Of a stretch of DNA of 64,000 nt, positions 3,235 through 38,685 are shown one piece after another. The stretch covers positions 6,983,411 through 7,047,410 of the forward strand of contig NZ_CP036348.1 in NCBI RefSeq assembly GCF_007753095.1, given 5' to 3'. Under the pieces are notes generated by a model. The model ran no database searches, was not told the origin of the DNA, and saw nothing but the letters and a program-made list of their open reading frames with translations. This DNA comes from Rosistilla carotiformis (GTDB taxonomy: Bacteria > Planctomycetota > Planctomycetia > Pirellulales > Pirellulaceae). Within the stretch, counting starts at the first letter, position 1, and every line of letters starts with the position of its first letter. Both the position numbers and the translations under genes were made by a program.

Positions 3235-6200
3235 GTGGAGACGGATAAACACCCCGCAGTGAAGCTCCGAAATCTGAAGCGCTCGCGAGAATCGATAGGT
3301 ACAAAATTGTTGGACGCGACGGAAAACAGCATCGACCACAATCCGCACCACCAGGGCTTCTCGGCACCTGTCGCTACCTCTGCGCCAAAAGAGCTGCCGA
3401 CGCTGGTCCATCGCTTGCGTTGGTACGGGCAAACCGAACACGCCGATCGCACCGCGTTCACGATGGTCTTGGATCATGACTTCAACGACACGCAATTAAA
3501 CTATCGCGATCTCGACCATCGCGCCCGCGCGATCGCCGCTCGCATCCAAGCCCTTGGCGGCGCGGGCGAGCGCGTGCTGATCGTTCTCGACCCCGGCATG
3601 GACTACGTCAGTTCGCTGTTCGGGTGCATGTATGCCGGTGCGGTTGCGGTCCCCGTCTATCCGCCCAGCATGTTGCGACTACAACACACTCTGGGTCGGC
3701 TGCAAGCGATCATTCAAAACGCCGACGCCAAAGTGATGCTTTCCAGCCGTGAGATCATCGGTCCGCAACTCAGCCCTCTCTGGAATCTCGACAACGCCGC
3801 GGCAATCGCGGTCGATGAGTTGTCGCTGTCGGCCGCCGACGACTGGCGTCCCTCGGCACCAGCCCCCGACGAACTGGCCCTGCTGCAATACACTTCCGGT
3901 TCGACAGGGATCCCTCGCGGCGTCGCGCTGACGCACGCCAACTTGATGCACAATCTGCGAGCCCTCGTCCGGCACTACCACTTCCCCGGCGCCAAAGCGT
4001 TGCACTGGCTGCCTCCCTATCACGACATGGGGTTGATCGGCGGGATCCTGTTGCCCGCTTATGAAGGTGTCGAGACGGTCATCCTGACGCCCAAGAACTT
4101 CATCTCCAATCCGCTGCACTGGTTGCAAGCGATCGACCGCTACCAAGGGACCAGCAACGGCAGTCCCAACTTTGGATATGAGCTGTGCGTTCGCAAGATC
4201 AAGCCGGAGCAGTGCGAGGGGCTCGACCTGAGCAGCTGGAAAGTTGCGGTTTCGGGCGCCGAACCGGTTCGCGCTGCGACCGCAAAACGATTCACGGAAA
4301 AGTTCCAACCGTATGGCTTCGATCCATCCGCCTTCTCGCCCGCGATGGGGATGGCTGAAACGACAGTTATCATGACCGGCAGCCCGCTGGGTAAGATGCC
4401 GATCATGTACGAAGTCGACAGCCGCGCGCTGGCCGCTGGCCGCATCGAACAGGTTGACGCACCGGGGCCTGGCACGCAGACGTTGGTCAGTTCCGGCGAA
4501 GCGGTTTTGGGAATGGAAGTCGAAATCGTCGACCCGCAAACCTGTCGTCTGGCGGGGCCAGGCCAGGTCGCCGAGATCTGGGCGCGCAGCGGTTCGATCG
4601 CCGCAGGCTACTGGAACCAACCCGAACTAACGCAAGCCACCTTTCACGCGACGATCGCCGACACGGGCGAATCGGGCTACTTGCGGACTGGCGACTTGGG
4701 CTGCATCATCGATGGGCAATTGATCGTCACCGGGCGGATCAAGGAATTGATCATCATCGGCGGACGCAATTATTATCCGCACGACATCGAAGCGACCGTG
4801 CAATCGATCAGCGAAGCCTTTAAGCCCGATTCGGGGACGGCCTTTTCGATCGACCACGATGGGCAAGAGCAGCTGGTCGTGCTGCAAGAGGTTTGGCGGC
4901 CGGGCAAATTTGCTATCGACAACCTGCTGCCCGAAGCCTTGGAAGCGATCGCCGAAAGTCATCAGGTCACGCCCCATGCGATCGTGTTGGTGAAGTCGGG
5001 ATCGTTGCCCAAAACATCCAGCGGGAAACTGCGCCGTCGCGATTGCCGGCAGATGTTCCTCGACGGTGAGCTTTCCGAAGTCCGACGCTGGCAAGCGGGC
5101 GGGTTCGCCGCAACCCAGGCGGCTGCAGAATTCGAAGCTCCCGAAACGGAGACCGAAGTCGCACTGGCATCGATCTGGAACGAACTGCTGCATGTCGATG
5201 AGATCAGTCGACACCATGACTTCTTCGATCTCGGCGGCCAGTCGCTGCTGGTTGGCCAGTTGGTCACGCGGATCGGCGAACAGTTTGGTGTCGAAATCGG
5301 ACTCTCGACGCTCTTCAGCCACAGCACACTCGGCCGACTTGCCGCTGCGATCGATGAGGGGGAAGGACGCCTTAAAGACGAAGTCACGCGACGGGATCAC
5401 GACGCCAAGGTGGCGCCGCTGTCGGCCGCGCAACAACGCTTCTGGTTGTTGCACGAACTGGAACAGACCAACGTGTTTTTGCATGTCCCCGTCTCGCTGC
5501 AAATCACCGGCGACGTCGACGCCGATCGATTGGAAGCCTCGCTCGCCGCGATCTGCCAGCGTCATCCGGCGCTGCGAACGATCATCGAGATGTCGGGCGA
5601 TGTGCCGATGCAACGCGTGCTGGACGACGCGCCGCTGCGGCTGCAACGTTTAAACGCGTCGCCCGAAAGCGTCGCCAAAGTCCGAGCCGATTTGGTTCGC
5701 CAGCCGTTTGATTTGCAAACCGCACCGCTGATGCGAGCGGCTCTGATCGAAACCGGTCCGTCGCAATATCAGCTGGAGATCGTCCTACATCACATCGTTT
5801 GTGATGCCAGCTCGGTCGAGATCCTGTTGCGAGATCTGATCGCCGCGGCTCCGGTCGATGCAGAACAGCTGACCTATCTCGATTTCGCTCAGTGGGATCA
5901 ATCCGAATCGCACATCGCACAGATCGATCAAAAGGTCGGCTATTGGCAAACGCGACTCGCCGGAATTCCCGAGCGTCTACAACTGCCGGTCGCGGAATCC
6001 GATGTGGCCGCGTCCGACGAATCGCCAGCGATCACGCGAGCCTTGGATGGTTCGCTCGCTCGCGATCTCGAAAGCGTCGCTCGCGACCATGGCACCACCG
6101 CGTCGATGGTCTACCTGGCCGCCTACCAACACGTCCTCTCGCGATACACCGGATCGTCCGATCTGCCGATCGCGATGCCGACGACCGATCGCCCCTCGTC

Positions 6201-8616
6201 GCAACTGGCCGCAACGGTCGGATGCTTCATGAATCCGATCATCTTCCGTGGCCAGATCGATCGCCAAGCCTCGTTCCTGCGATTGCTGCGATCGACGCGA
6301 GACCATCTGCTGCAAGATCTGGAACATGCCAACGTGCCGTTCCAACGCGTGGTCGAATCGATCGATCATCAGCGGTCGTTGGATGCGATGCCGCTGGCCC
6401 AAAACATGTTCCTGTTCCAACAGCCGCTGCATGCCAGCGACGCCCCGATCGAGATCGCTGGCGGCACGCTGCAAGCGGTCCAACCCGACTACGCCGCCGT
6501 CACGGCATACGACCTGTCGATGGTCATCCATCCGTCGTCGACGACCGAGATCACGGTGGTGCACAACGATCACATCGATCGTGCGACAGCGGAAGGCGTT
6601 CTGGATCTGATGGAAGCGACGCTGCAAGCGATCGCCGCCAATCCCGCTTGTGCGCTGATCGACTTGCCCAGTGCATCGCCGACCGATCGCAAAGCTTTCG
6701 AACAACTCAATCTCGCCACCGCCGCGGAATGCGATTCGGCAACGCTCTGCCAACGGCTAGCCGATGTCGCCGCCAATGCAGCCGATAAGATTGCGATCAC
6801 CGACGACCATCGCGGACTCAGCTACAGCGCTCTCGACGCGCAATCGACAGCCTTGGCCAAGGTCTTGCGGCAACGAGGCATCGCGGCCGGGAATCTGGTT
6901 GGCGTCGACATGCAGCGATCGATCGAGATGCTTGTCGGGATGCTGGCGGTTTGGAAAGCGGGAGCGGCTTATGTGCCGTTGGATCCGGCACTGCCGCAAG
7001 AGCGACTGGCGATGATGATCGAAGACGCCGGGCTCGCGGCGATCCTCTCCGATACAACATCGATGCAGGCCGACGTTCCCGTCTGGCAGTTCGCCGAACT
7101 GAGTCGATTGGATGCGCAAGATCTGTCGCTGGACGGACCTCTGCCGACAGATCTCGCTTACGTGATCTATACATCCGGTTCGACGGGCAAACCCAAAGGA
7201 GTTGCGATCGAACATCACAGCGTCGCCAATCTGTTGAACAGCTTTGCCGCGCGTCCCGGCTTCACCGCCGACGATTCGATCTTGGCTCTAACCACGACTT
7301 CGTTTGACATCTCGGTATTGGAGCTGTTCCTGCCGCTGTGGGCCGGCGGGCACGTGCGGTTAACCGCCGATCGAGCGGCGACCGAACCGGAGTCACTGAA
7401 ATCGATCCTCGAAACCGAACCGATCACTCACCTGCAGACGACGCCCTCGACACTGCGTGTCTTAATGACGACTGGTTGGACGCCCAGCCGGCAGTTGCGA
7501 GTGTTCAGCGGTGGCGAACCGTTGCCAGCCGATCTCGCGAGCCAGTTGTTGGCCAGCGGCTGCGAGCTGTGGAATGTCTATGGTCCGACCGAGACGACCG
7601 TCTGGTCGACGATCTCCCGAGTCGAAGGCGAACGCGTTTGCATTGGTCAAGCGATCGATAATACCACGATCCATCTGCTCGATCCCGAATTGCGCCCCGT
7701 TCCACGCGGCGTCTCGGGCGAGTTGTGCATCGGCGGTGCCGGCGTGGCTCGCGGCTACTGGAATCAACCCGAACTAACTCGCCAGCGATTTGTCACGCTG
7801 CCGCCGACGTCCTTCTCCGCCGACGACTCATCCACAACCGACCAGCCCTCGCCGCGCGTCTACCGGACCGGCGACCAAGTGCGAATCGACAGCCGAGGCG
7901 AACTGCACTTCTTGGCTCGCAACGACCGGCAGATCAAACTGCGCGGCTTCCGGATCGAGCTGGATGAGATCGAATCGGCGATCGAATCGGTCGCGGGAGT
8001 TCATCGCGCGGCGGTCGTCGTTCGCGGCGAAGCTGCTCAACAGCAGATCGTCGCCTTCTGCCAAACCGACGTCGATGTCGATGCGATTCGCCGATCGATC
8101 GGCGGGCGGCTGCCGCAATACATGCTGCCGTCGACGATTTGTCGGCTGCCAGCGATCCCGCAAACTCCCGCCGGCAAGACCGACTACAAAGCGTTGCCGC
8201 TGCCGAACACGGAGCCTGTGGCGGTCGCAGCGATTGCGCTGCCGCAGTCGCCGCTGGAACATGCGGTTGCCAATCTCTGGCAGGAAGTTTTGCAGACCGG
8301 ACCGATCGGCCGCGACGTCAGCTTCTTCGAGCTCGGCGGCAATTCATTGCAAGCGGCCCAGCTGCTATCGCGGCTCCGCGACCAATTCGAAGCGAAGATT
8401 CCGCTGCGGCTGCTGTACGATTCGCCAACGATTGCAGCGATCGCCGAATCGATCGTGCAGGACCAGCTGCAACAGGCCGATATCGATGAAATCCGCATGC
8501 TTGAAGAACTGGAGAGCCTCTCGGACGAGGAGGTGCAACGACGACTGGGCAGCTTGGATGCCAGCGGCGACGACGCAGGTCGCGACCGCAACGACAACTT
8601 GAGCGATTCCCAATAG
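3235..8616 (+). CDS. Nonribosomal peptide synthetase, FAAL-ACP-C-A-PCP
   Basis: A 1793-residue assembly-line enzyme. Domain order: fatty acyl-AMP ligase (about 55-625; YTSGSTG from Tyr219, and WLPPYHDMGLIGG near 258, typical of FAAL rather than amino-acid A domains); carrier domain with phosphopantetheine Ser670 in GGQS; condensation domain with HHIVCD (His852, His853, Asp857); adenylation domain with YTSGSTGKPKG near 1312 and core FDISVLELF; second carrier domain with Ser1704 in GGNS. The C-terminus is a short acidic helix ending in a disordered tail; there is no thioesterase, reductase or terminal condensation domain. The FAAL should adenylate a free fatty acid, and the C-A-PCP module should add one amino acid. 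A-domain pocket residues read by eye start D-I-L, with W and V near the NVYGPTE core; substrate not predicted. Start is GTG at 3235 with a weak ribosome site; a slightly later start is possible. Confidence 0.92.
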   Translation: METDKHPAVKLRNLKRSRESIGTKLLDATENSIDHNPHHQGFSAPVATSAPKELPTLVHRLRWYGQTEHADRTAFTMVLDHDFNDTQLNYRDLDHRARAIAARIQALGGAGERVLIVLDPGMDYVSSLFGCMYAGAVAVPVYPPSMLRLQHTLGRLQAIIQNADAKVMLSSREIIGPQLSPLWNLDNAAAIAVDELSLSAADDWRPSAPAPDELALLQYTSGSTGIPRGVALTHANLMHNLRALVRHYHFPGAKALHWLPPYHDMGLIGGILLPAYEGVETVILTPKNFISNPLHWLQAIDRYQGTSNGSPNFGYELCVRKIKPEQCEGLDLSSWKVAVSGAEPVRAATAKRFTEKFQPYGFDPSAFSPAMGMAETTVIMTGSPLGKMPIMYEVDSRALAAGRIEQVDAPGPGTQTLVSSGEAVLGMEVEIVDPQTCRLAGPGQVAEIWARSGSIAAGYWNQPELTQATFHATIADTGESGYLRTGDLGCIIDGQLIVTGRIKELIIIGGRNYYPHDIEATVQSISEAFKPDSGTAFSIDHDGQEQLVVLQEVWRPGKFAIDNLLPEALEAIAESHQVTPHAIVLVKSGSLPKTSSGKLRRRDCRQMFLDGELSEVRRWQAGGFAATQAAAEFEAPETETEVALASIWNELLHVDEISRHHDFFDLGGQSLLVGQLVTRIGEQFGVEIGLSTLFSHSTLGRLAAAIDEGEGRLKDEVTRRDHDAKVAPLSAAQQRFWLLHELEQTNVFLHVPVSLQITGDVDADRLEASLAAICQRHPALRTIIEMSGDVPMQRVLDDAPLRLQRLNASPESVAKVRADLVRQPFDLQTAPLMRAALIETGPSQYQLEIVLHHIVCDASSVEILLRDLIAAAPVDAEQLTYLDFAQWDQSESHIAQIDQKVGYWQTRLAGIPERLQLPVAESDVAASDESPAITRALDGSLARDLESVARDHGTTASMVYLAAYQHVLSRYTGSSDLPIAMPTTDRPSSQLAATVGCFMNPIIFRGQIDRQASFLRLLRSTRDHLLQDLEHANVPFQRVVESIDHQRSLDAMPLAQNMFLFQQPLHASDAPIEIAGGTLQAVQPDYAAVTAYDLSMVIHPSSTTEITVVHNDHIDRATAEGVLDLMEATLQAIAANPACALIDLPSASPTDRKAFEQLNLATAAECDSATLCQRLADVAANAADKIAITDDHRGLSYSALDAQSTALAKVLRQRGIAAGNLVGVDMQRSIEMLVGMLAVWKAGAAYVPLDPALPQERLAMMIEDAGLAAILSDTTSMQADVPVWQFAELSRLDAQDLSLDGPLPTDLAYVIYTSGSTGKPKGVAIEHHSVANLLNSFAARPGFTADDSILALTTTSFDISVLELFLPLWAGGHVRLTADRAATEPESLKSILETEPITHLQTTPSTLRVLMTTGWTPSRQLRVFSGGEPLPADLASQLLASGCELWNVYGPTETTVWSTISRVEGERVCIGQAIDNTTIHLLDPELRPVPRGVSGELCIGGAGVARGYWNQPELTRQRFVTLPPTSFSADDSSTTDQPSPRVYRTGDQVRIDSRGELHFLARNDRQIKLRGFRIELDEIESAIESVAGVHRAAVVVRGEAAQQQIVAFCQTDVDVDAIRRSIGGRLPQYMLPSTICRLPAIPQTPAGKTDYKALPLPNTEPVAVAAIALPQSPLEHAVANLWQEVLQTGPIGRDVSFFELGGNSLQAAQLLSRLRDQFEAKIPLRLLYDSPTIAAIAESIVQDQLQQADIDEIRMLEELESLSDEEVQRRLGSLDASGDDAGRDRNDNLSDSQ

Positions 8617-8632: not shown

Positions 8633-10351
8633 ATGACCACGACAGAAACCATTCGCGACATCGACCACTTGATCCTCGGCGCCGGCCCTGCGGGGCTGCA
8701 GCTTGCCTATTTCATGGACCGCGAACAACGCGATTATCTGGTTCTCGAAGCAAACGACCGCGCCGGAGCGTTTTACGAACGGTTCCCGCGACACGGCAAG
8801 CTGATCTCGATCAATAAGGTCTACAACGGCTATACCGAGCGACGGGCCCAGCTTCGATACGACTGGAACTCGCTGTTGTGCGATGACGATGGCTTCAACT
8901 TCCAGAACTACACCGACGCCTATTACCCAAACGCACAACTGTACGCGCAATACCTGCGAGATTACGCAGCCCGCTTCGATCTGAAGATCCAGTACAACAC
9001 TTGGATCAGCGACGTCAGCCGCGCCGAGGACGGAACCGACCGGTTTATCGTTCGCGATGCCGACGGGAACCTCTATCGTTCGCGAACGTTCATCGTCGCG
9101 ACGGGAGTTTCCAAGCCGTACGTTCCCGAAATCCCCGGTATCGAACTGACCGAAAACTACTTCGACATGTCGATCGATCCCAAGGATTACGCCGACCAGC
9201 GGCTGTTGATCATCGGTAAGGGGAACTCCGCGTTTGAGACGGCGAACCATCTGCTCAACGCCACCCGCGTCACGCACCTGGCCAGCCCCGGGTCGATCAA
9301 GATGGCTTGGCAGTCGCACTTCTTCGGCCACCTGCGAGCTGTTAACAACGAGTTCCTGGACACCTACATTCTGAAGGGACAGAACTCCGTCCTCGACGCC
9401 AACATCGACAAGATCGAAAAGGTCGACGGGGAATACCGCGTCAACATCACGTTTACGCATGCCGAAGGACAGCGAGCGGAAATGGCTTACGATCGCGTCA
9501 TCTGCTGCACCGGATTCCGCTGGGATCCCAAGTTCTTTGGCGAGAACTGCCGCCCCGATATGGCTTGCGAAGACCGTTTGCCCGCGATGACAAGCGGCTG
9601 GGAATCGACAAACATTCCCAACCTGTATTACGCCGGCACGATCATGCAGATACGCGATCTGAAGAAGACGATGTCGAACGTGCTGCACGGTTTCCGATTC
9701 AACATCAAATCGCTGTACAACATCATCGCACAGCAACACGAATCGACTCCTTATCCGTCGCACAAACTGCCCGTGGCTGCCGAACCGATCGCCGACAAGA
9801 TCATCGACCGCGTCAGCAGCGACGCGGGACTGATGCACCAACCGGGATTCTTGGGCGATTGCATGGTGGTCGACCGCGAGACGGGCGAGGCGCGGTATCA
9901 CGAGGGGCTGGCTGTCGATTACATCTTGGACAGCGAATTTGGCCAACAGCAAGACTATTACATCATCACGATGGAATACGGCGACTTTGAAGGGAACGTC
10001 TTCAGCCTCGAACGCGAGCCGCATCCGGAGAAGGCTTACAACGACGCCTACCTACATCCGCGGATCCGCCACATGCGCGGCAACGCATTGATCGCCGAGC
10101 ATCACATCAGCGAATCTCTTGAAAATGACTGGCGGCTGAACGAACATTGCGGCAAGCGCAAGCTGATCCGCGCGATCGATTTCGTCGGCCAAGAGGATCC
10201 GACGCAGTACCAGCAGACCCATTTCCAAAAGTTGGTCTGTTTCTTCGAACGGCAGCTAGCCGTCGACACCGCGTCGGCAACCCCGATGTGCCACGAGTCG
10301 AGCAGCCCCACAGCGTGCTCCACCGCCTGCGAAGTTTCCGAAAAGGCGTAG
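8633..10351 (+). CDS. FOXRED2-like FAD/NAD(P)-dependent oxidoreductase
   Basis: A 572-residue two-dinucleotide-binding flavoprotein, starting 16 nt after the NRPS stop and so probably co-transcribed. The FAD Rossmann motif GAGPAG is at residues 16-21. The NAD(P) site GKGNSAFE is near residue 197, and a CCTGFRWD segment resembles the C-terminal FAD motif of flavin monooxygenases. The stretch FPRHGKLISINKVY, followed by a YDWNSLL segment, closely recalls the eukaryotic ER flavoprotein FOXRED2 (remembered family resemblance, no search done). The C-terminal third (from about residue 385) has no motif I can name. Position in the NRPS operon suggests it oxidises the acyl, aminoacyl or polyketide intermediate, for example by hydroxylation, but neither substrate nor reaction can be read from the sequence. 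No signal peptide, so cytoplasmic. Confidence 0.8.
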   Translation: MTTTETIRDIDHLILGAGPAGLQLAYFMDREQRDYLVLEANDRAGAFYERFPRHGKLISINKVYNGYTERRAQLRYDWNSLLCDDDGFNFQNYTDAYYPNAQLYAQYLRDYAARFDLKIQYNTWISDVSRAEDGTDRFIVRDADGNLYRSRTFIVATGVSKPYVPEIPGIELTENYFDMSIDPKDYADQRLLIIGKGNSAFETANHLLNATRVTHLASPGSIKMAWQSHFFGHLRAVNNEFLDTYILKGQNSVLDANIDKIEKVDGEYRVNITFTHAEGQRAEMAYDRVICCTGFRWDPKFFGENCRPDMACEDRLPAMTSGWESTNIPNLYYAGTIMQIRDLKKTMSNVLHGFRFNIKSLYNIIAQQHESTPYPSHKLPVAAEPIADKIIDRVSSDAGLMHQPGFLGDCMVVDRETGEARYHEGLAVDYILDSEFGQQQDYYIITMEYGDFEGNVFSLEREPHPEKAYNDAYLHPRIRHMRGNALIAEHHISESLENDWRLNEHCGKRKLIRAIDFVGQEDPTQYQQTHFQKLVCFFERQLAVDTASATPMCHESSSPTACSTACEVSEKA

Positions 10352-10954: not shown

Positions 10955-12187
10955 TCACAATGATTGGCTGTCGACAGTGTTGGATCGGTGCGGTGAATGT
11001 GGATGTTTTGTGATCGTCTGGCCCGAGATGTCATAGCGGACGTCACGCCAATCGATGCTTTGCGCCGTGATGCATTTCCAATAGAAGACCGGTGAGATTA
11101 GCTGGCTCAGTAAAACCCAGAACGGTAGCGCGGCGACGGACATCCACCTCCAGGACCTCCACTGCACGGCTCGACTGGCCAGCCGTCGCCGGACTCCCCA
11201 TTGGCAGAGTCCCACCAATAGCGAGTTGGAGACTTCGAAGGCTGCAAGCGCCGCAAGCACCCCAATCATGTCGTTCGAGTTGGATTGCGTTCCGGCAACG
11301 ATGATCAGTAACGCTGCCAAGAAGGGGACGATGATGGAGATAATGCCGTAGCCGACCGTGGCTGGCCAGCTGGGGTGATACAACTTTGCCAGTAACATTT
11401 GCCGAGGCACCCAGTCGATCACGTTGGCCAGCGTTGTCGATTCACGATTGACGATCATCGCAGTCGGCACAAACGCTTGCCGATAACCATGGTTGCGGAG
11501 CAGCCGATACAGCATGGTGTCTTCGCATAGCGTACCGGACCAGTGTTTCAGCAGATCGGCCTTGTCGATAACATCCCGGCGGATCGCAAGGCTTCCGCCC
11601 CAGGCGATTCGCAGCAGCACCATATTCACTGCGGCGGGAACATTCCATAGGTAGCGTATCATCGACCCGGGCGAGTTGGGCTGAGGCATGTACCAGCGAT
11701 TCCCGGTGGCAACACCGACGCCGGGATCGGCAAGCGGTGCCGCGAGATCGGCCAGCCAATTAGGACCTGGAACCGCATCGGCATCACACAGGGCGACGAT
11801 CTGGAACGACGCATCCAAGTTCCCGATCGCTTGAACCAAACTGCTGCATTTCAAGCTGCACGTCGGTGGCGGGTTTTGCAAGACTTCGATTTGCAGCCCG
11901 GCACGCCCTTCAAATTTCCGCAGCACCGACCAAGCGGGGTCTTCGTCGCTGTCGACGACCACGCAAAGCAAGTAGTTCGCATAATCTTGCGACAGCAGGC
12001 TCTGCAGGCAATCCGACAGGAAAGGGTCCGCGCCGCGAAGGCAAAGGATAATCGCAGCCTTCGGTTGGTTGGCTGTTTGCCGGTCGCAACCGCTTCGCGA
12101 CATGAACCAAACAAAGCAAACCGCCGCAGTCGTCTGGATTGCAACAATCACCGCGATCAAACAATAGAGAGCGGAGACGATCGTCAC
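10955..12187 (-). CDS. Membrane GT2/GT21-like glycosyltransferase (paralog a)
   Basis: A 410-residue integral membrane glycosyltransferase. One N-terminal transmembrane helix (residues 5-28) is followed by a GT-A domain with AAIILCLRGADPFL, nucleotide-sugar Asp in VVVDSDEDPAW, a D-A-D motif in LCDADAVPGPNW and the third Asp in LCEDTML. Hydrophobic helices follow. The Q/RxxRW acceptor motif of processive or ceramide-type enzymes appears only as a degenerate RQMLLAK. The arrangement fits GT21 ceramide glucosyltransferase/HpnI-like enzymes that glycosylate lipid acceptors at the inner membrane. It is clearly a paralog of the product at 22685-23962: both carry PTCSLKCSSLVQA. It is divergent from the condensation-like gene across 113 nt. 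It probably transfers the first sugar onto the lipid product, though that is inference. Confidence 0.85.
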   Translation of the reverse strand: MTIVSALYCLIAVIVAIQTTAAVCFVWFMSRSGCDRQTANQPKAAIILCLRGADPFLSDCLQSLLSQDYANYLLCVVVDSDEDPAWSVLRKFEGRAGLQIEVLQNPPPTCSLKCSSLVQAIGNLDASFQIVALCDADAVPGPNWLADLAAPLADPGVGVATGNRWYMPQPNSPGSMIRYLWNVPAAVNMVLLRIAWGGSLAIRRDVIDKADLLKHWSGTLCEDTMLYRLLRNHGYRQAFVPTAMIVNRESTTLANVIDWVPRQMLLAKLYHPSWPATVGYGIISIIVPFLAALLIIVAGTQSNSNDMIGVLAALAAFEVSNSLLVGLCQWGVRRRLASRAVQWRSWRWMSVAALPFWVLLSQLISPVFYWKCITAQSIDWRDVRYDISGQTITKHPHSPHRSNTVDSQSL

Positions 12188-12300
12188 AGAGCATTTTTCC
12201 TAGGAGCGGTACACGATGGTCGAAATCGCACGCCATCGTCGATGCGACCGAGCGGGATTATACTACTTCGATTTGTGATCGCAGAGGATGCTTCGAGAAG

Positions 12301-27318: not shown

Positions 27319-27421
27319 CGCTCGCCCATCCTTGCGCCCACCACTTCGATTGTCGTTGCGATTCTGCCGCTGCAGAAATCGATCGCACCGGCACCTACTA
27401 TCCCCGATGTTTCGCAAGGGT

Positions 27422-29600: not shown

Positions 29601-30494
29601 TTAGCTCCGTGGTGCCCGGAATTCTCCCCACGAAATGCTCGCACGAATCATATGCGAGACCCATTCGTCGGGCTCTACAAAACGACGTTTGATCCGATAC
29701 AGCAGCATCGAATACATCGCGTCGAAGCCATTGGCCATCCGTCCTGTGACGGTCCGCCCCGCGGCGACATTCTCCATTCCCTGGCCAACGAAATAGTCGC
29801 GGATAAATTTTTCGCTGGCCCGTCGCGCGGGCACGATATGTCGAAGCGGCGCGTCCGGGACCCAGCGTCCGCGTCCTCCGCAGCGGACGATTTCCCGCAG
29901 CACTGCGATCTCTTCGCCTCCCATCATTCCCGAACCGACGCGTCCCCACCGCGGGTCGTAGCGATGGGCCTGTTGCACATCGGTGCGAACGGCGAAGTTC
30001 GCGCCGTATGGCAAACGCTCCGCCGTCAGTTCGACCTCTGCATCCCCCAGCATCCGCGGCGAAAAGGCCGGATTGCACTTCTCCCACGTTTCGGAAATCC
30101 AGTCGGGACATCCGGGCGGTTCAAACCATGGTTCGATACAACCGCCAAAAAAAGCGATGTCCGGGGCCGCCTCAAATGCGCTGCGATAGGCGTTCAGCCA
30201 CTGCTTGGAAACCAAAACATCGTCGTCGGTCCAGAGAATGTAGTCGCCCGTCGCTGTATCGATCGCGCGATTGCGAGAGAGCGACAGCCCCTGCTGAGGT
30301 TCGTGAACGTATCGAATCGGCAGCTGTAGGGCGAAGCTCCCAATCACATCGGCGGTATCATCCGAAGAGTTATTATCGACGACGATCAATTCCCATTCGA
30401 TGGGATCGCCCATCTCCATTTCGGCGATCGATTGAAGCGTGCGTCGGAGCAAACCGGAGCGATTCCAGGTGCAGATCGCGACGCTGATCTTCAT
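29601..30494 (-). CDS. GT2 family glycosyltransferase
   Basis: A 297-residue GT-A enzyme. The start is ATG at 30494, inside an ATGA overlap with the stop of the upstream GT4 gene, where the product begins MKISVAICTWNRSGLL, the canonical GT2 opening. Nucleotide-binding VVDNNSSDDT and the metal-binding DxD in LWTDDDVLV are present. The segment GMMGGEEIAVLREI supplies the likely catalytic-base position near a G-G-E-E. No strong transmembrane helices are visible, so it is probably cytoplasmic or peripheral. It forms a two-gene unit with the GT4 gene upstream. Sugar and acceptor are unknown. Confidence 0.88.
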   Translation of the reverse strand: MKISVAICTWNRSGLLRRTLQSIAEMEMGDPIEWELIVVDNNSSDDTADVIGSFALQLPIRYVHEPQQGLSLSRNRAIDTATGDYILWTDDDVLVSKQWLNAYRSAFEAAPDIAFFGGCIEPWFEPPGCPDWISETWEKCNPAFSPRMLGDAEVELTAERLPYGANFAVRTDVQQAHRYDPRWGRVGSGMMGGEEIAVLREIVRCGGRGRWVPDAPLRHIVPARRASEKFIRDYFVGQGMENVAAGRTVTGRMANGFDAMYSMLLYRIKRRFVEPDEWVSHMIRASISWGEFRAPRS

Positions 30495-31642
30495 GAACTT
30501 CCGACTCCCTGTTCGGCAGCCAATGCCATCAAATCGCTGTAGAGAACCGCAACGGGGTCCTCGTGATACCGCTGCCGAATGTGTTGTCCCGCCAATTGGC
30601 CGATCTCTTGCCAGCGATCTCTTTTTTGCCAAGCCGCTTCGAGTGCGTGGTCGATCAGTTCGGCTGTCGCAGCCGGTGCGATGAACCCCGTCTCACCATC
30701 GCGGATCAATTCTCGATTGCGGCCGACAGCTGTCGTGACGCAAACGCGATTGCACAACAAGGCTTCGACGACTGCCAACGCGGCACCTTCAAAACGGGAG
30801 GGGAGAACCAGACCGTGGTGATTCGCCCACAACTTTTCAATCGTTTCGGAGAAGCCTTCGTAGTGGATCTGATCCTGCAGTCCATGCCGCGCGATGAGGT
30901 CTTCGGTTTGTCGAAGGAAGCCCTGCGATTCGCCGTACAGATGTAGCGACAGATTCCGCTGTCGCCATTTGTCTTGCCGCAGAACGTCGATCAACAGGTC
31001 TTGGCCCTTGGAGGGAAAGTGCAATCGCCCGACACAGGCCAAACGAAAACCGTCGCGATCGGTTGGCCAGGCCGGTTGGGCATCCCAGGAAACATTAAAC
31101 GGATTGTCGATGATCTTTGCCGTTTCGATCCGCATCGCCAACATCGTCTCAACACGCTCAAGATTCTCCTGGGAAACGAAATAGACTCTGGCCGCACCGG
31201 CATACGCGGCTCGGAAGGCGTCCAGGAAATACGAATCGAGATAGTCGGGGCTGGCGCATTGGACATTGATCGCGTAGGGAATTTGCCGACGCATCAGCTC
31301 CGCTGCCGGGGAGACTGTATTTAAATGATAGCCGAGGGTAACCAGGGCCAGATCAGGCTGCTCTTTGGCCAACCACCGCTGGATATGCTGGGCATCGGTC
31401 TTGGGCCACCGCGCGGGATTGAGGCTGTTGAACCACGATGGCGGATGCGGCACGGGCCGCGTGCTCACGCTCGCTCCTGCTCGACGAAGCGATTCGAGCG
31501 CTTTGGCCTCGGGATCCCAGCGGCGAAAACTAACGCAAACTTGGTGTGCGTCGGCCCGCATTCGGTGCGCGACTCGCGACCAAAGAACTTCGCTGCCGCC
31601 CCACGGCATGCCTGTCATCGTGGAATAAAACGCGAACTTCAA
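30491..31642 (-). CDS. GT4 family glycosyltransferase
   Basis: A 383-residue GT-B glycosyltransferase. The start codon is TTG at 31642, accepted because the product then begins MKFAFYSTMTGMPWGGSE, the conserved donor-side opening (G-G-S-E) of GT4 enzymes. The C-terminal domain has FRLACVGRLHFPSKGQDLLI, LPSRFEGAALAVVEALLCN (the E-x7-E signature) and GETGFIAP. It is the promoter-proximal gene of a two-gene unit with the GT2 gene, which it overlaps by 4 nt, and is divergent from the ABC exporter operon across 177 nt. Confidence 0.9.
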   Translation of the reverse strand: MKFAFYSTMTGMPWGGSEVLWSRVAHRMRADAHQVCVSFRRWDPEAKALESLRRAGASVSTRPVPHPPSWFNSLNPARWPKTDAQHIQRWLAKEQPDLALVTLGYHLNTVSPAAELMRRQIPYAINVQCASPDYLDSYFLDAFRAAYAGAARVYFVSQENLERVETMLAMRIETAKIIDNPFNVSWDAQPAWPTDRDGFRLACVGRLHFPSKGQDLLIDVLRQDKWRQRNLSLHLYGESQGFLRQTEDLIARHGLQDQIHYEGFSETIEKLWANHHGLVLPSRFEGAALAVVEALLCNRVCVTTAVGRNRELIRDGETGFIAPAATAELIDHALEAAWQKRDRWQEIGQLAGQHIRQRYHEDPVAVLYSDLMALAAEQGVGSS

Positions 31643-31819: not shown

Positions 31820-33442
31820 GTGAGCCTCCTTCTACTCATGTTGCGTTCCTCGTGGAGAGCGAGCTTGGCATCGATTGTCTTTGGTGGAGCCAGTGGATTG
31901 GCGATGCTTGGATTGATCACGTTGATCCATCAATCGTTCACGCAGCAAGCAGCCGCATCCAATCGCTTGGCAACACTGTTTGGCTTCGCTTGTCTTGCAG
32001 TGTTGGTTCTGCAGGTGGTCTCCAAGTGCATTTTGACCCGCCTTTCCCAGTCGACCGCGGCCCGTTTGCAGTTTGAATTATGCAATCGCATCGCTGCCGC
32101 CCCGTTGCCCGAATTGGAAGCCTGTGGCCCCCATCGCCTGCTGGGCACGTTGGGTGGAGACGTCGGTGCGATCACCAACGCGCTCTCGCAATTCCCAACC
32201 GTATGCGCCAATGCGATGGTGCTGATCAGCGGTCTGGTCTACTTGGCCAGTCTGTCGCTACCGCTGGCGATCGGCTCGGTGATCATGGCGTCGCTAGGCA
32301 TTGCCAGCTATCTGGGCGGATTGCACTGGGCCAACTACCACCTGCGGCAAGCGCGCGAGGATCGCGACGAAGTCAGGAAGCAGTTGCAGGCGATGGTGTT
32401 TGGGATCAAAGAGCTGAAAGGGAACAATCGTCGCTGCGTTGAATTCATGTACGACGTGCTGCTGCCGGCCGACACCGCGATGCGGGAACGTTTGATAAAA
32501 GGGACCGATATTCTCGGTGCCGCACACACCTGGGGACGTCTATCGCGTTTCATCGGTATCGGGCTGTTGATCTTTGTCTGGCCGCGGTTCTGGCCGGTCA
32601 CATCCGAAACCTTGATGGGATACACGCTGACGATCCTGTATCTGACCAGTCCTCTGGACAGCATCCTTGGCTGGTTGCCGGCGCTGAACAACGCCAACAT
32701 CTCGCTCAATAAAATCAACGCGCTCGGGTTGATGATCGATCCGTCCAAAGCGATCGCTTGCGGAACGCAGATTCCCGAGTTTCGCTCGATCTCGCTCCGC
32801 AACGTCTCTTACGCCTACCGGTCTCCGCATTCCGACCAAGAGAGCTTCCATCTGGGCCCCATCGATCTCTTGGTGATGCCCGGCGAGGTGCTGTTTATTG
32901 CCGGTGGCAACGGTAGCGGGAAGACGACGCTAGCGAAATTGCTGACCGGTTTGTACACGCCCGATCAGGGCGAATTGCTGCTGAACAAACAAGTCGTCGA
33001 CCAGGCGGCATTGGGTGATTACCGGCAGATGTTTACGACAGTCTTCGTCGAGGGGCACCTGTTCGACCGACTGCTGGGAATCGACGCCAATCCGATGCAG
33101 TTGAAGCGTTGGGCCAGCATTTTGGGCATCGAAGACAAAGTTGATTTCGAGACCGGACACTTCCGGCTTGGCAAGCTCTCGCGTGGGCAGCACAAACGAC
33201 TCGCCCTGCTGGTCGCCTGTTTGGACCAACGCCCCGTGTTTGTCTTTGACGAATGGGCGGCTGAACAAGACCCCGGGTTTAAAGAAGTTTTCTATCGACA
33301 CATCGTGCCTGAATTGACTCGCAACGGTCGATCGGTCGTCGCGATCACCCATGATGACCGCTACTTCTTCGCCGCCGATCGCGTCGTTGAGTTGGTGGAT
33401 GGGAAGATGGTTTCCAGTCGACGGCAAAGGATCGCAGCATGA
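31820..33442 (+). CDS. PvdE/SyrD-type cyclic-peptide ABC exporter (TMD-NBD fusion)
   Basis: A 540-residue half-transporter with an N-terminal transmembrane domain (about 1-300, five to six helices) and a C-terminal ATPase: Walker A GGNGSGKTT, signature LSRGQHKR, Walker B VFVFDEWAAEQD and switch His in AITHDD. The shortened signature and the D-E-W-A-A-E-Q-D form are characteristic of the cyclic peptide transporter family (TIGR01194: PvdE, SyrD), which moves NRPS products such as ferribactin and syringomycin across the inner membrane. Start is GTG 31820; ATG at 31838 is an alternative. Its stop overlaps the next gene (ATGA), so the three exporter genes form one operon. The substrate is presumably the product of the NRPS/PKS locus. 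Confidence 0.9.
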   Translation: MSLLLLMLRSSWRASLASIVFGGASGLAMLGLITLIHQSFTQQAAASNRLATLFGFACLAVLVLQVVSKCILTRLSQSTAARLQFELCNRIAAAPLPELEACGPHRLLGTLGGDVGAITNALSQFPTVCANAMVLISGLVYLASLSLPLAIGSVIMASLGIASYLGGLHWANYHLRQAREDRDEVRKQLQAMVFGIKELKGNNRRCVEFMYDVLLPADTAMRERLIKGTDILGAAHTWGRLSRFIGIGLLIFVWPRFWPVTSETLMGYTLTILYLTSPLDSILGWLPALNNANISLNKINALGLMIDPSKAIACGTQIPEFRSISLRNVSYAYRSPHSDQESFHLGPIDLLVMPGEVLFIAGGNGSGKTTLAKLLTGLYTPDQGELLLNKQVVDQAALGDYRQMFTTVFVEGHLFDRLLGIDANPMQLKRWASILGIEDKVDFETGHFRLGKLSRGQHKRLALLVACLDQRPVFVFDEWAAEQDPGFKEVFYRHIVPELTRNGRSVVAITHDDRYFFAADRVVELVDGKMVSSRRQRIAA

Positions 33443-34704
33443 CGAACAAGAAACCTAAACGCTCGTGGGTGAGACGTCTGGTTCTCGGTGGGGGCATGCT
33501 TTTCGGCGTGCTTGCTGTCGCAGGATTCTTCTATGTTCGAAGCGTTAGCAATGCGCTGCCCGAACTAAGAACCGTCGATATCCAGCGACGCGACCTCGTG
33601 ATCACGATTGGTACCACCGGCACGATCGAGCCGGATGAAGTGGTGCAAGTAGGGCCCGAGGTGGCCGGCAAGATCGTACGCTTTGGCGTCGATCCCGACG
33701 ACAAACAGAAATCGATTGGCGTCGGGGCTCGTGTCTCGAAAGGGACGGTCCTGTTTGAGATCGATCCGCAACAATTCGAGATGGGGCTGCAAAAGGCACA
33801 AGCTGCGTATGGTTTGGCGCAAGCTGACATCGGGCGTCTGGAGGCACAACTTGCCCAGGCCAGCCGAAACCTGCAGCGGGCGACGCAATTGCGGGCGACC
33901 AACACGCAGAGCGCTTTCGATGAGATCCAGACTGCGCACGAAATGGCAGCCGCCCAGTTGGCGGTTGGACAGGCGAGGTTAAAGCAGGCGGAGACCGAAG
34001 TCCGCCATGCCGAGATCCATGTGGAGCAGACGACGGTCCGGTCGCCGATCGATGGGATCGTGATCGACCGTCGGGCGAACCTGGGCCAGCACGTTCATGC
34101 AGGGCATCCCGGTCTGTTTTTGCTGTCGAAAGATTTAGACCACATGCGGATCCGGGCTTCGGTCAGCGAAAGCGACATCGGCAAAGTGAAGCTTGGGCAA
34201 CCGGCGACCTTCACCGTCGATGCCCATCGCAACGACACGATGACGGGCCGCGTCGAGGAGATTCTGTTCAACGCCCGCCGACAGGGAAACTTTGTTACCT
34301 ACGATGTGGTCATCGGCATCGACCCGACCGACATCGAACTGTTCCCACACATGACCGCCGATGTGGAGTTTGAAGTCTTGCGGCGAGACCACGCTTGGTT
34401 GGTCCCCAATGGAGCGCTCCGTTGGTGGCCCGACTCCAAACAACTCGAAAGCGGAGATCTGCTGGTCGATCGTCCTCAACCGCAAGACAATGCGCGAGGC
34501 CCCAGCGAAGGCGAACAGGCTTGCGTTTGGGTCGCTGCCGGAGACGGACGGGTCCGCCCACTGAAGGTCCGCGTCGGAGTGGACGATGGGGTGCAGACCG
34601 AGGTCCAAGGGGATGGCTTTGCAGAAGCATTGCCGATCGTGGTTGGAACCGTCGACCGCACGACCCTTGCGCGGATCATTCCGACCGCTAAGACGATTCG
34701 ATAA
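33439..34704 (+). CDS. MacA/PvdR-like periplasmic adaptor (membrane fusion protein)
   Basis: A 421-residue adaptor. It has one N-terminal transmembrane helix (about 12-35) and then a barrel-sandwich (lipoyl-like) half with VQVGPEVAGKIVRFG and a long alpha-helical hairpin rich in Ala, Gln and Leu (about residues 110-190). The second lipoyl half has TVRSPIDGIVIDRR, and a beta-barrel domain carries IRASVSESDIGKVKLGQPATF. This is the HlyD/MacA architecture, which links an inner-membrane ABC transporter to a TolC channel. The gene overlaps the preceding exporter gene by 4 nt and precedes the MacB-like gene by 51 nt. It would carry the mature product from periplasm to outer membrane. Confidence 0.9.
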   Translation: MTNKKPKRSWVRRLVLGGGMLFGVLAVAGFFYVRSVSNALPELRTVDIQRRDLVITIGTTGTIEPDEVVQVGPEVAGKIVRFGVDPDDKQKSIGVGARVSKGTVLFEIDPQQFEMGLQKAQAAYGLAQADIGRLEAQLAQASRNLQRATQLRATNTQSAFDEIQTAHEMAAAQLAVGQARLKQAETEVRHAEIHVEQTTVRSPIDGIVIDRRANLGQHVHAGHPGLFLLSKDLDHMRIRASVSESDIGKVKLGQPATFTVDAHRNDTMTGRVEEILFNARRQGNFVTYDVVIGIDPTDIELFPHMTADVEFEVLRRDHAWLVPNGALRWWPDSKQLESGDLLVDRPQPQDNARGPSEGEQACVWVAAGDGRVRPLKVRVGVDDGVQTEVQGDGFAEALPIVVGTVDRTTLARIIPTAKTIR

Positions 34705-34755: not shown

Positions 34756-36807
34756 TTGATTGAACTGGGCAACGTCGAAAAGACCTACCGGGTTGGCAAT
34801 TCCGACCTGCCCGTCCTGAAAGGGATCACGCTGAACATTGCCGCCGGCGAATACGTCGCGCTGATGGGCACCTCCGGTTCCGGCAAGACCACGCTGATGA
34901 ACCTGTTAGGTAGCCTGGACCGGTTAACCAGCGGGCAGTATCGGTTCGCCGATATCGACGTGTCGGAATTGACAGCTGGCGAACTTGCCATCTTTCGCAA
35001 TCGCCACGTTGGATTTGTATTCCAAAATTTCAATCTACTGCCGCGGACCTCGGCATTGGACAACGTGCTGTTGCCCACGCTTTACGCCAGCGACGATCGG
35101 TCCCAAGCAGAGAAGGTTCAATACGCCAAACAGTTGTTGGAAACGGTGGGACTTGCCGGGCGTTTGGACCATACGCCCAACCAACTTTCCGGTGGCGAAC
35201 GGCAGCGCGTCGCCATTGCTCGGGCTTTGATCAACCGTCCGCGATTGTTGCTCGCCGACGAACCGACCGGCAACCTCGACTCGAAGACCGAGCTCGAGAT
35301 CTTGGCATTGTTTCGCAAGCTGAATCTCGAACATCGGATCACACTGGTCGTTGTCACTCACGATTCGCAAGTCGCCAAAAGTTCCGACCGTATCGTTCAT
35401 ATGAAAGACGGTGTGATCGCCGCAGATCAACCGAATGAATCCAGCTATTCGGCCGTCGAGCAACCCGAACCGGCTCCGCCAACGAAGCTCTCCGGCGGCA
35501 GGAATCGACAACATTTGGCGGCGACGCTGAACGCAGTCATGGTCGCGATCTTGGCGCTTCGTCGCAACGCTCTGCGAACGGCGCTGACGATGCTGGGGGT
35601 GATCATCGGTGTGGCATCGGTCGTCAATGTGATGGAACTGAGCAGCGGTTCTTCGCGGGCGATCAAAGAGACGGTTGCCAGCATGGGAGCCGATATGTTG
35701 ACAGTCATGTCGACCCATACCTCTTCATCGGGAAGACGCAATCGCTATGTCCCTTTGACGCCGGCGGATGCCGATCAGCTGGCGGAGCAATGCCCTGCGG
35801 TGAAGTTGACGGCACCGATCGTGCACGGACAGGTGCAGCTGGTGTATGGCAACCGCCGCAGTCGACCGACGTTTGTGGTTGGAAGCACAGCCGACTACCT
35901 TCGCGGACGCCACTGGGCCGATACCGACATGGGCCAATTGTTCACCGACGAAAACGTCTTCGATGCGGCGAAGGTCTGCGTGATCGGGCAGACGGTTGCC
36001 AGCGACCTTTTCCTGGACGACTATCCCGTAGGGAAAGAGATTCGAGCCAACGGGATCTCACTGCGCGTTGTCGGTGTCTTGTCGGCAAAAGGTGGTGACG
36101 TGATCGGCAACGATCAAGACGACATCATCGTCGCGCCCTGGACAACTTTTAAATACCGTCTGAATGCCAGTTCGCATGCCACACCGCGATTCGCTGCATT
36201 CGCAGACCAAATGCCAAAAATGCAATTGGTATCGAACCGCCAATCGTCGCGAAATGAAAACCTGAGTCAGATCTATGTGCAGGCGGTATCGCCGGAACAT
36301 ATCGGCGAAGCACGCCAACAGATACGTGAGTTCCTTGCCCGTCGGCACGATGTCAGCGAAGACGTTTTCCAGATTCAAGACCTGACCGAGGTCTCGAAAG
36401 TTACAAATCAAGTTGTCTCCGGGCTGGCGGCACTCGGCTTCATTATCGCCGGCGTTTCGCTACTGGTGGGAGGCGTTGGGATCATGAACATCATGTTGGT
36501 TTCGGTGACCGAACGGACGCGAGAGATCGGGCTGCGGATGGCTGTTGGCGCCGATCGCTCTGCAATCCTTCGCCAGTTCCTGATCGAAGCGACCGTGTTA
36601 TGTATGATCGGTGGTCTGGTTGGAATCGTGTTTGGACACCTTTGTTCGATGGCGATCGGTTGGTTTATGTCGTGGCCCAACGAATTGTCGCTGACCGCCG
36701 CGATCGTCGCCGTCGGTGTCGCTGCCTTTGTCGGCATCCTGTTTGGATATTATCCGGCGAGAAAAGCTTCGCTGTTGGATCCGATCGACGCCCTGCGATT
36801 TGAATAA
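34756..36807 (+). CDS. MacB/PvdT-like ABC transporter (NBD-permease fusion)
   Basis: A 683-residue MacB-type transporter. N-terminal ATPase: Walker [10 protein letters not shown], signature LSGGERQR, Walker [14 protein letters not shown] linker follows, then the MacB permease: first helix in [18 protein letters not shown] (about 275), a large periplasmic core domain, and three C-terminal helices starting with [19 protein letters not shown] and including the FtsX signature [15 protein letters not shown]. Such proteins drive tripartite efflux of peptides, siderophores and antibiotics from the periplasm. Start codon is TTG 34756, giving [14 protein letters not shown]. Its TAA directly abuts the TAG of the convergent TolC-like gene, so the tripartite set is complete at this locus. 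Confidence 0.92.
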
Positions 36808-38685
36808 CTACCGAACAGCTGGACCGGCAGCGGCCGGAGGTTGAGCCAGTTGCGTGTTGGTTGAGGAATCGTCGCCCGATGGCGGTTGGGCGAACACCGA
36901 AGGCGCGTTTAACGCAAAACGACATTCATCCGTTGCTGGCGTTCCAAAACCAACGCCCATCGTTTTCAGCAGCGTTCCGCGAGCGTAGTGCAATTTGATA
37001 AATGCAAGGTTGTAATCGATGACGCTTCGTTGATATTGCGTCTCGGCTCGCGTGGCGCGAATCTGCGCTTCCAGCACATGTTCAACCTGCGCATCGCCAG
37101 CCGCGTGCCGCTGGGTTTGAGCGTCCAAGCGGATCGTTGCCGCATCGTGGCTGAGCGCCATGTAGTGCATCGTCCCCAGCGCGCGATCGAGTTCGATGAA
37201 AGCGGTTCGCAGTTCCGATGAGATCTGCGCTCGCTGTGCATCAGCGAGCGCGTGCTCGCGGCTCAGCTGAAGTTCGGCGTTGCGGATCGCTGCGTTTTCG
37301 CGGCTGTTTTGAATCGAACGGCGATAATCGATCCCGATCTGCCAACCCTGCAACGCCTCGCTGAACAGCGCGGTGTCGGTGGTTGGATCATCGGCCAGGC
37401 GACGGTATTGGCCAACGATATCGACCTGCGGACGGCGAAGGTTCTTGGCCGCTTTCCGCTCCAAAATACGTCGGTCGATATTCGACTGCTGGATCCTCAG
37501 CTCAAGCCGCCCGGTCGTTGCCAACGCGTTGCTCTCGTGCCAATCGAATCGGATCGCTGCTTTGAGCGGAGTTCCGTTTGGGTGTAGCAAGCGGCCGTCG
37601 CAAGCCGGCATGCCCAGCAGCGTTCTCAGTTTCAGTTCAATCGCATAGACGCCGGTCTGCCCATGTCCGGTCCCAGCGATGGCGTTGCGGACTGCAGCAA
37701 CGGCGGAATAATACTGTTGCCGCGCGATCGCTTCGACGTCGGCGGGGCTGACATTCGCAGCGGCCCGCTCTTGCTCTCGCTGCCAGGAGTTGTGCGCGTT
37801 GTCCAGTGCTTTCTGCTTGGCCCTGAGATTTTCATAGGCAAACGCCAGCTCCCAGTAGACGATGCTCACGTCGCGCACGAGGTCTCTTACCGATTTCTCG
37901 ACTTCCAGTTGCGCCTTGCGCTGGCCGATTTTCGAGATCAAGACGCCGCGATATAAGCCGGGTTTGCCAAATGGGCCGGCGATGTCGTTGAATTCGGTCC
38001 CAGCTCCACGCATCAGCGGGTGTCGCACCTCGGCACCATACGCAGCATAAAGACCTCCGGCCAGTTGTTTGTCGTAGCCGCCGACGCCGCCGACAGCCAC
38101 CTTGGTTCCGCTGCGAAGCATCTGTCCCCAGCCGACTTTTGCCATCGTCTCGGGTTGCGAAAAGACGCCGAACTGTCCGCTGGAGAATGCCGAGTTGACG
38201 GAACTGCCCCCGCCGTTCCAAACCAGCGCGGTTTCAAACTGCGTGTCGTAAGCCGATAGCGCCGCGTCGATACCAATATTGGGATCGCTTGCAATCACGG
38301 CTGGATCGAGCGTAGTGCGAATCGCATCGGGATAGGTCAGCACGCGACCACCGTGATCCTGGATCACTTGGCTGTTCGCAAGCGCTCGCTGGACCGCGTC
38401 GTCGAGCGAGATGTCTTCTTGTGGCAGCTGCTGAAAATCATCCACGCTCGGCGGCGTGAGTTCGACCGCGCCCTGGATCGCGCTGTCGCTCAGTTCTTTC
38501 GACGCCTGATAGTTCACCAGGGCGATGACAGATTCAGCCGACGTCGGCTCGGTGGCCGGAGATGTTGCAACCGTCAATTTCTTGGAACGGATGCCGGGAA
38601 GTTTTGCTTGGGAGCGACATCCCTGGCTGCAGAACAGCAGCGGGGCAAGCAACAACACAGCAATCGATCCATAGCTGTGTTTCAT
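36808..38685 (-). CDS. TolC/OpmQ-like outer-membrane efflux lipoprotein
   Basis: A 625-residue outer-membrane factor. The N-terminus has a lipoprotein signal peptide with lipobox-like LLFCSQGC, so the mature protein is probably lipidated at that Cys. The body is dominated by long amphipathic helices and repeats of Ala/Arg/Gln typical of the TolC periplasmic tunnel (for example LDNAHNSWQREQERAAANVS, ERKAAKNLRRPQVDIVGQY and VEHVLEAQIRATRAETQYQR). The C-terminal 40 residues are Pro/Ala-rich and disordered. It is somewhat longer than Escherichia coli TolC. It converges with the MacB-like gene with no gap and would form the exit channel of the cluster's exporter. Expression from its own promoter, in the opposite direction to its partners, is unusual but not rare. 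Confidence 0.87.
   Translation of the reverse strand: MKHSYGSIAVLLLAPLLFCSQGCRSQAKLPGIRSKKLTVATSPATEPTSAESVIALVNYQASKELSDSAIQGAVELTPPSVDDFQQLPQEDISLDDAVQRALANSQVIQDHGGRVLTYPDAIRTTLDPAVIASDPNIGIDAALSAYDTQFETALVWNGGGSSVNSAFSSGQFGVFSQPETMAKVGWGQMLRSGTKVAVGGVGGYDKQLAGGLYAAYGAEVRHPLMRGAGTEFNDIAGPFGKPGLYRGVLISKIGQRKAQLEVEKSVRDLVRDVSIVYWELAFAYENLRAKQKALDNAHNSWQREQERAAANVSPADVEAIARQQYYSAVAAVRNAIAGTGHGQTGVYAIELKLRTLLGMPACDGRLLHPNGTPLKAAIRFDWHESNALATTGRLELRIQQSNIDRRILERKAAKNLRRPQVDIVGQYRRLADDPTTDTALFSEALQGWQIGIDYRRSIQNSRENAAIRNAELQLSREHALADAQRAQISSELRTAFIELDRALGTMHYMALSHDAATIRLDAQTQRHAAGDAQVEHVLEAQIRATRAETQYQRSVIDYNLAFIKLHYARGTLLKTMGVGFGTPATDECRFALNAPSVFAQPPSGDDSSTNTQLAQPPAAAGPAVR

Follow-up and report, generated by a model that had tools for sequence, protein, structure and literature searches.

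A co-conserved PKS, glycosyltransferase and exporter gene set in Rosistilla carotiformis, adjoining a separable NRPS unit, is a candidate pathway for a sulfated fatty-alcohol glycolipid

The region considered here is a 35-kb stretch (positions 3235-38685) in the genome of Rosistilla carotiformis (Pirellulaceae; G000, one contig of 7,437,004 bases). It lies in a window of 64,000 nucleotides (G000:C1:6983411-7047410), which is the whole stretch of DNA analysed and to which positions refer unless another locus is named. The initial annotation, made from sequence alone, took the region for one contiguous locus of nonribosomal peptide synthetase (NRPS) and polyketide synthase (PKS) genes making a glycosylated, sulfated lipid or lipopeptide. 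Its genes are all there and contiguous, but they do not form one inherited unit, since the NRPS and the flavoprotein are separate from the rest. Unit 1 (3235-10351) contains an FAAL-ACP-C-A-PCP NRPS and a flavoprotein, and unit 2 (10955-38685) contains fifteen genes, coding for a reducing PKS, an HHxxxDG acyltransferase (AcylT), six glycosyltransferases, two proteins without family, a sulfotransferase (ST), and exporters (Table 1). Twenty-nine window proteins were scanned with Pfam (E ≤ 1e-3), NCBIfam models were scored against their curated cut-offs, and genes in the loci of relatives were called by the longest open reading frame (ORF).

Table 1. Genes of the two units, with window positions and the basis of each assignment
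Feature	Unit	Positions	Strand	Basis
FAAL-ACP-C-A-PCP NRPS, 1793 aa	1	3235..8616	+	Pfam AMP-binding x2, Condensation, PP-binding x2; FAAL models
FAD-dependent oxidoreductase	1	8633..10351	+	Pyr_redox_3 / Lys_Orn_oxgnase; adjoins NRPS
GT2a, GT2/GT21-like, distant HpnI relative	2	10955..12187	-	Pfam; HpnI sub-cut-off
AcylT, stand-alone HHxxxDG acyltransferase, condensation/Pap/WS-DGAT superfamily	2	12139..13638	+	Pfam Condensation; HHACCDG
Reducing PKS KS-AT-DH-MT-ER-KR-ACP-TR, 2994 aa	2	13635..22619	-	Pfam; TIGR01746; motifs
GT2b, second HpnI-like glycosyltransferase	2	22685..23962	-	Pfam; HpnI sub-cut-off
Conserved protein without family; start probably later than listed	2	24036..25076	-	Homologues in relatives
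GT8 glycosyltransferase	2	24956..26065	-	Glyco_transf_8 E 4.1e-38
Conserved protein, possibly GT-B-like; start probably ~27340	2	26020..27726	-	TIGR04396 E 7.5e-4, sub-cut-off
GT4-type glycosyltransferase	2	27422..28690	-	Glyco_trans_1_4 E 2.3e-17
ST, sulfotransferase	2	28739..29593	+	Sulfotransfer_1 E 1.7e-18
GT2 glycosyltransferase	2	29601..30632	-	Glycos_transf_2 E 2.5e-24
GT4-type glycosyltransferase	2	30491..31642	-	Glyco_trans_1_4 E 6.9e-24
Fused ABC exporter, cyclic-peptide-exporter subfamily	2	31820..33442	+	TIGR01194
HlyD/MacA-type periplasmic adaptor	2	33439..34704	+	HlyD_D23; RND_mfp 126.4 bits, cut-off 94.9
MacB-type ABC permease/ATPase	2	34756..36807	+	MacB_PCD, ABC_tran, FtsX
TolC-like outer-membrane channel	2	36808..38685	-	OEP E 8.1e-21

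The annotated FAAL-type NRPS, flavoprotein, HHxxxDG acyltransferase and sulfotransferase are borne out by Pfam and NCBIfam matches and by motifs. The reducing PKS with a reductive-release domain also holds: its C-terminal thioester reductase (TR) scores 328.2 bits with TIGR01746, above the cut-off of 213.35, and follows an ACP, the architecture of reductive release. The PKS contains in addition a C-methyltransferase domain absent from the earlier description. Its best models and structures are those of mycocerosic acid synthase (MAS) and Pks2. Among the best 25 of 163 models, Pks2 gives 1268.8 bits for KS-AT-DH, under its equivalog cut-off of 2400, and PfaA gives 337.6 bits (cut-off 1010.1), which leaves the protein outside the class resembling polyunsaturated fatty acid (PUFA) synthases; HglE is absent from these 25. 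The catalytic motifs of KS, AT, DH, ER, KR, ACP, and TR are kept with small substitutions in all five aligned PKSs (G000, G013, G111, G140, and G119), including GxxGxxG and YxxxK of the TR. Four of the five contain the methyltransferase region, of which little is left in G013 (15 residues versus 366); this suggests that methyl branching is optional. G000 has another PKS of this type at G000:C1:997376-1004791 (53% identity in part), in which a condensation domain precedes the thioester reductase. The same layout is found in G006, and pieces of a PKS and a reductase that match it occur in G072.

HpnI, the bacteriohopanetetrol glycosyltransferase, is the best NCBIfam model for both GT2a (90.3 bits) and GT2b (89.9 bits), yet both score far below its cut-off of 310. 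Hopanoid glycosylation was rejected on these scores and because no cyclase match occurs among the 29 window proteins. The GT8 protein matches a lipopolysaccharide (LPS) galactosyltransferase model below its cut-off. AcylT passes Pfam Condensation (31.9 bits, cut-off 30.6) and falls below PapA_C (24.7, cut-off 30) and the subfamily models PapA5 (33.6 of 396) and WS/DGAT (39.1 of 309.95); its HHACCDG motif is kept in all six aligned sequences. The sulfotransferase motifs AKSGTNWL and RDGRDAxVS, which we take to be of the type that binds 3′-phosphoadenosine-5′-phosphosulfate, are kept in G013, and homologues occur in L214 and L215. Both annotated ABC export systems are present at 31820-38685, one being the fused exporter, which passes TIGR01194 (394.6 bits, cut-off 286.2), and the other the HlyD-MacB-TolC-like set. 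No MMPL match is found among the window proteins.

The count of eight glycosyltransferase-like genes was too high, as six have Pfam glycosyltransferase matches and the ORFs at 24036-25076 and 26020-27726 have none. The former lacks any Pfam or NCBIfam match and has homologues in G072, G013 (split), G111, L114 (frame broken), and L115. The latter has a sub-cut-off match to a surface-polysaccharide model, TIGR04396, and shows 57 and 55% identity in two named relatives. Their predicted folds are poor (AlphaFold mean pLDDT 40.3 and 43.1, respectively), and PDB profile searches with both returned at best unrelated capsid proteins (E 0.018). ORF 26020-27726 overlaps ORF 27422-28690 by 305 bases; hence, some of the listed starts are probably too early.

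Units 1 and 2 are almost certainly separable. In the single contig of the same-genus genome G006, AhpC, NRPS, and flavoprotein run directly into GH42M and LeuRS, the neighbours of unit 2 in the window, and the NRPS and the flavoprotein are each 98% identical to those of G000. The alignment of the two DNAs places the junction near positions 10894 and 38937, where there are short repeats. A genome-wide search of G006 with four of the fifteen unit-2 genes gave no match for GT2a (E ≤ 1e-20) or the fused ABC exporter (E ≤ 1e-40) and only paralogue-level matches for AcylT (32%) and the PKS (another PKS, in pieces of 47-53%). Short repeats recur at the edges of unit 2 in G000, G006, and G072 (window 38872-38964; L082 5535-5618), and the 3′ end of the flavoprotein gene is duplicated at the G072 junction.

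Unit 2 is itself conserved. All its fifteen genes are found together in G072, in the order of the window, and in a different order in G013, Aporhodopirellula aestuarii (L114, L214), and Rhodopirellula rubra (L115, L215); this difference in order makes mere recent linkage less likely. G111 has fourteen of them, in two groups ~13 kb apart with other genes in between; the orthologous sulfotransferase is missing there, and another sulfotransferase-family gene, which G013 shares, is present. The stretches seen around unit 2 in A. aestuarii, R. rubra, G013, and G111 contain no NRPS match, and G013 and G111 have none genome-wide (E ≤ 1e-200). Among 392 genomes of the phylum, a sample poor in members of the family, the fused ABC gene (E ≤ 1e-100) was found only in G000 and as one 36% match. 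A GTDB scan with the same gene, covering the best 80 of 105 relatives and possibly omitting the own and very near genomes, retrieved two intact loci above 70% identity (A. aestuarii and R. rubra) and a partial planctomycete match at 69%. None of the other 77 loci, nine of which are shorter than 8 kb, has AcylT, GT2a, GT2b, GT8, or ST at ≥80 bits in the stretch covered. The synteny that the initial annotation proposed to look for in other Pirellulaceae is thus found for the PKS, acyltransferase, glycosyltransferases, sulfotransferase, and exporters, and this co-conservation supports its idea of a planctomycete cluster whose genes fit a sulfated glycolipid.

Two further observations concern this gene set. 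Within the unit-2 genes of G111 (L086 7027-9429), and next to those of G129 (L099 258-1670), there are sulfatase genes. GT2a and AcylT (window 10955-13638) are 86-87% identical to those of G072 (L082), compared with 96-99% for the PKS, NRPS, glycosyltransferase, and exporter genes; from these identities, the pair looks locally replaced between the two genomes.

The distribution of the NRPS is different. Its FAAL-type models match residues ~69-614, and its A-domain pocket, at what we take to be the specificity positions, reads DILQFGVVW(K), presumably resembling the glycine code; no reading given here draws on it. An NRPS match (E ≤ 1e-200) is carried by 13 of 149 genomes of the family. In six genomes from three other genera (G055; G008; G045, G091, G114, and G140; loci L057, L058, L059, L092, L094, and L096), the gene after the NRPS and the flavoprotein codes for a second NRPS, which in G140 is C-A-MT-PCP-TE. 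Its orthologue in G000 (55%, in two pieces) lies at G000:C1:133587-138878, ~0.58 Mb from unit 1 if the chromosome is circular. Because of this partner, adjacent in six genomes and present in G000, unit 1 is probably an acyl-dipeptide pathway, separate from unit 2. Less tidily for this grouping, G138, G032, and G007 have NRPS genes with no flavoprotein match in the stretch examined.

The fused ABC exporter is found at ≥60% identity in 8 of the 149 genomes (8 of the 12 listed). It co-occurs with the NRPS in three, G000, G072, and G140, slightly above the ~0.7 expected under independence, and two of the three share one genus. The two genes are adjacent only in G000 and G072, within that genus, and in G140 the NRPS and the PKS are ~110 kb apart. 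One would expect co-conservation across Pirellulaceae if the NRPS belonged to the same pathway as the PKS, glycosyltransferases, and exporters, and for the NRPS it fails. A single combined NRPS-PKS product was rejected on these grounds, and with it the earlier glycolipopeptide reading loses its support. In conclusion, unit 2 is a real co-conserved gene set, outside the glycolipid systems tested, and its position beside a lipopeptide pathway made the two look like one locus.

Unit 2 can be read, with fair probability, as a self-contained pathway for a glycoside that is sulfated, probably acylated, and exported to the surface, with a fatty alcohol made by the PKS as its tail and an oligosaccharide as its headgroup. 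Domains, motifs, co-conservation, and separability are established from the sequences; from them, every chemical step, the order of the sugars, the sites of acylation and sulfation, the surface location, and the product are predicted. The PKS, presumably working iteratively, would build a reduced, optionally methyl-branched acyl chain, which the C-terminal TR would release as an aldehyde or alcohol. GT2a and GT2b would attach the first sugar or sugars to the fatty alcohol, and the GT8, GT4, and GT2 enzymes would extend the headgroup. The stand-alone acyltransferase would add an acyl chain and the sulfotransferase a sulfate, and the two export systems would carry the product to the cell surface. 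That the sulfate is placed on this same fatty-alcohol glycolipid is somewhat less probable than the rest of the chemistry.

The fatty alcohol is suggested by the TR domain, which passes its cut-off, and by relatives in which a reductase occurs without the PKS. G083 and G129 have AcylT, GT2a, GT2b, and the complete exporter set (ABC, HlyD, MacB, and OEP), and the 60 kb seen contain no PKS. Beside MacB, both have a protein of 501-512 aa that matches the TR domain at 27-28%. Co-location was counted over 20 kb in the 149 family genomes, with 102 reductase or TR matches (E ≤ 1e-34) among the matches listed. At least 33 of 89 GT2a matches (25 genomes) lie within this distance of an NAD_binding_4 reductase or TR match, and at least 29 of 124 AcylT matches (26 genomes) do so; the 0.55 and 0.74 pairs expected, respectively, are crude estimates for uniform 7-Mb genomes. 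AcylT is near GT2a in 12 of the 124 matches, with 0.77 expected. In G059, G046, and G119, GT2a and the reductase or PKS have an MMPL-family transporter as a neighbour, and a BLAST homologue occurs in G026.

Several points weigh against this reading. For the stand-alone reductases, TIGR01746 scores stay under the cut-off (the one of G083, an NAD_binding_4 protein, has 105.7 bits versus 213.35), and therefore “fatty acyl reductase” is only a superfamily-level call. Among the matches listed, 95 of 124 for AcylT and 56 of 89 for GT2a have no reductase within 20 kb, in part because many assemblies are fragmented, and the genomes are related, so that the co-location counts are not independent. Beyond the family, a GT2a match was found in 12 genomes, and a reductase match lies near it in none of them (E ≤ 1e-40 for both, by visual comparison of coordinates, with a reductase query that at this threshold misses the PKS-borne TR of G000); hence, the pairing seems to be a trait of the family. 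The fused ABC exporter is by sequence a member of a peptide-exporter subfamily. In 37 of the 77 distant loci (from the best 80 of 105 relatives) an NRPS match of ≥80 bits lies near it, and relatives of the ABC, HlyD, and MacB genes accompany FAAL-PKS-PKS-NRPS-NRPS clusters in G103, G060, and G007 (L105-L111). Exporter genes alone therefore do not mark a glycolipid. Finally, AcylT occurs with a reductase and without GT2a in G043 and G018, so it may esterify something else. The loci of these two genomes (L197, L200) contain a KR/DH PKS-like protein, the reductase, an AMP-ligase-like protein, and AcylT, perhaps a wax-ester-like pathway.

The comparison made earlier with mycobacteria stands for the KS-AT lineage and the type of acyltransferase; the reductive release and the HlyD/ABC/TolC-type export are nearer to the heterocyst glycolipid (HGL) loci discussed below. 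Sulfolipid-1 (SL-1) and phthiocerol dimycocerosate (PDIM) loci share with unit 2 a MAS/Pks2-type KS-AT-DH, an HHxxxDG acyltransferase, a sulfated sugar, and a lipid exporter. They differ in that unit 2 has a predicted reductive release, an in-line C-methyltransferase, six glycosyltransferases, and MacB/TolC-type export; it has no FAAL match, the Pks2 and PapA5 cut-offs are not reached, and none of the 29 scanned window proteins matches MMPL. The sulfotransferase of unit 2 is of PF00685/PF13469 type, unlike that of SL-1, Stf0 being PF09037. The SL-1 pathway uses Pks2, FadD23, PapA1, and MmpL8 (PMC9989471, in part). By analogy with these loci, a Pap-like acyltransferase could esterify the PKS chain onto a sugar, with only a minor role for the TR. 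The Pks2 and MAS scores of the KS-AT-DH, the HHxxxDG acyltransferase adjoining the PKS, and the MMPL transporters of related loci would agree with this, but the TR motifs are kept in all five aligned PKSs and a reductase gene is present in G083 and G129, where the PKS was not seen, which makes it an unlikely alternative.

Less likely still is an LPS-like locus: its main product would be an oligosaccharide or polysaccharide of the cell surface, and the PKS chain would decorate it only slightly or be made independently of it. The several glycosyltransferase families and the sub-cut-off LPS galactosyltransferase and surface-polysaccharide matches are what one would expect of such a locus, but no unit-2 protein has a Pfam match to a polymerase, flippase, or O-antigen ligase (E ≤ 1e-3), and PKS, AcylT, and GT2a adjoin in all five further genomes with the set. 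Completion of an FAAL-NRPS lipopeptide by the PKS, glycosyltransferases, and sulfotransferase in one combined pathway is highly improbable: the adjacency in G000 and G072, the three co-occurrences of NRPS and exporter, the exporter's peptide-exporter affiliation, and its relatives in the PKS/NRPS clusters of G103, G060, and G007 are outweighed by the NRPS of G006 without unit 2 beside it, the 14-15 unit-2 genes free of any NRPS match in four relatives (genome-wide in two), the separation in G140, and the NRPS's own thioesterase-bearing partner.

For the fatty-alcohol glycolipid reading, the closest known systems by architecture are the HGL loci of cyanobacteria (hglBCDEA, hglT, and devBCA). 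HglB combines an ACP with a thioester-reductase domain, and HGL export needs devBCA (PMC8064123, in part); HglT adds the glucose headgroup (PMC11804610, in part), and the HGL synthases are PUFA-synthase-like (PMC13291983, in part). The likeness lies in a PKS-made chain, an ACP-TR architecture for reductive release, and HlyD/ABC/TolC-type export. In contrast, unit 2 has a single MAS/Pks2-like PKS with a methyltransferase that is not PUFA-synthase-like, it adds an acyltransferase, a sulfotransferase, and several glycosyltransferases, and its exporter misses the DevA (203 of 295.8 bits) and DevB (59.4 of 129) cut-offs. In related isolates, including Rosistilla ulvae EC9, antiSMASH PKS/NRPS clusters were <10% similar to known ones (PMC8303584, in part). 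Searches of the literature on planctomycete glycolipids, PKSs, thioester reductases, MMPL, and fatty alcohols gave no title describing such a cluster, although it may be mentioned elsewhere than in titles.

The two units illustrate that adjacency in a single genome can fuse unrelated pathways into an apparent cluster. Beyond this locus, one can tentatively propose that Pirellulaceae have a widespread, unnamed class of surface fatty-alcohol glycolipids. Its core would be a reductase and an HpnI-like glycosyltransferase, joined in part of the loci by a Pap/WS-like acyltransferase; the other parts would be exchangeable, the alcohol coming either from a stand-alone reductase or from a MAS-like PKS-TR that has or lacks the methyltransferase, and export being by MMPL or by MacB/TolC. 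The version found in Rosistilla and Aporhodopirellula would be sulfated, a Gram-negative counterpart of the mycobacterial sulfolipids reached by another route. If the pathway proposed for unit 2 is correct, planctomycetes would have a defined sulfated glycolipid pathway, one that joins a MAS-type PKS to fatty-alcohol release and a multi-sugar headgroup, and a single genus offers species with and without the module (G000 and G006) for direct comparison.

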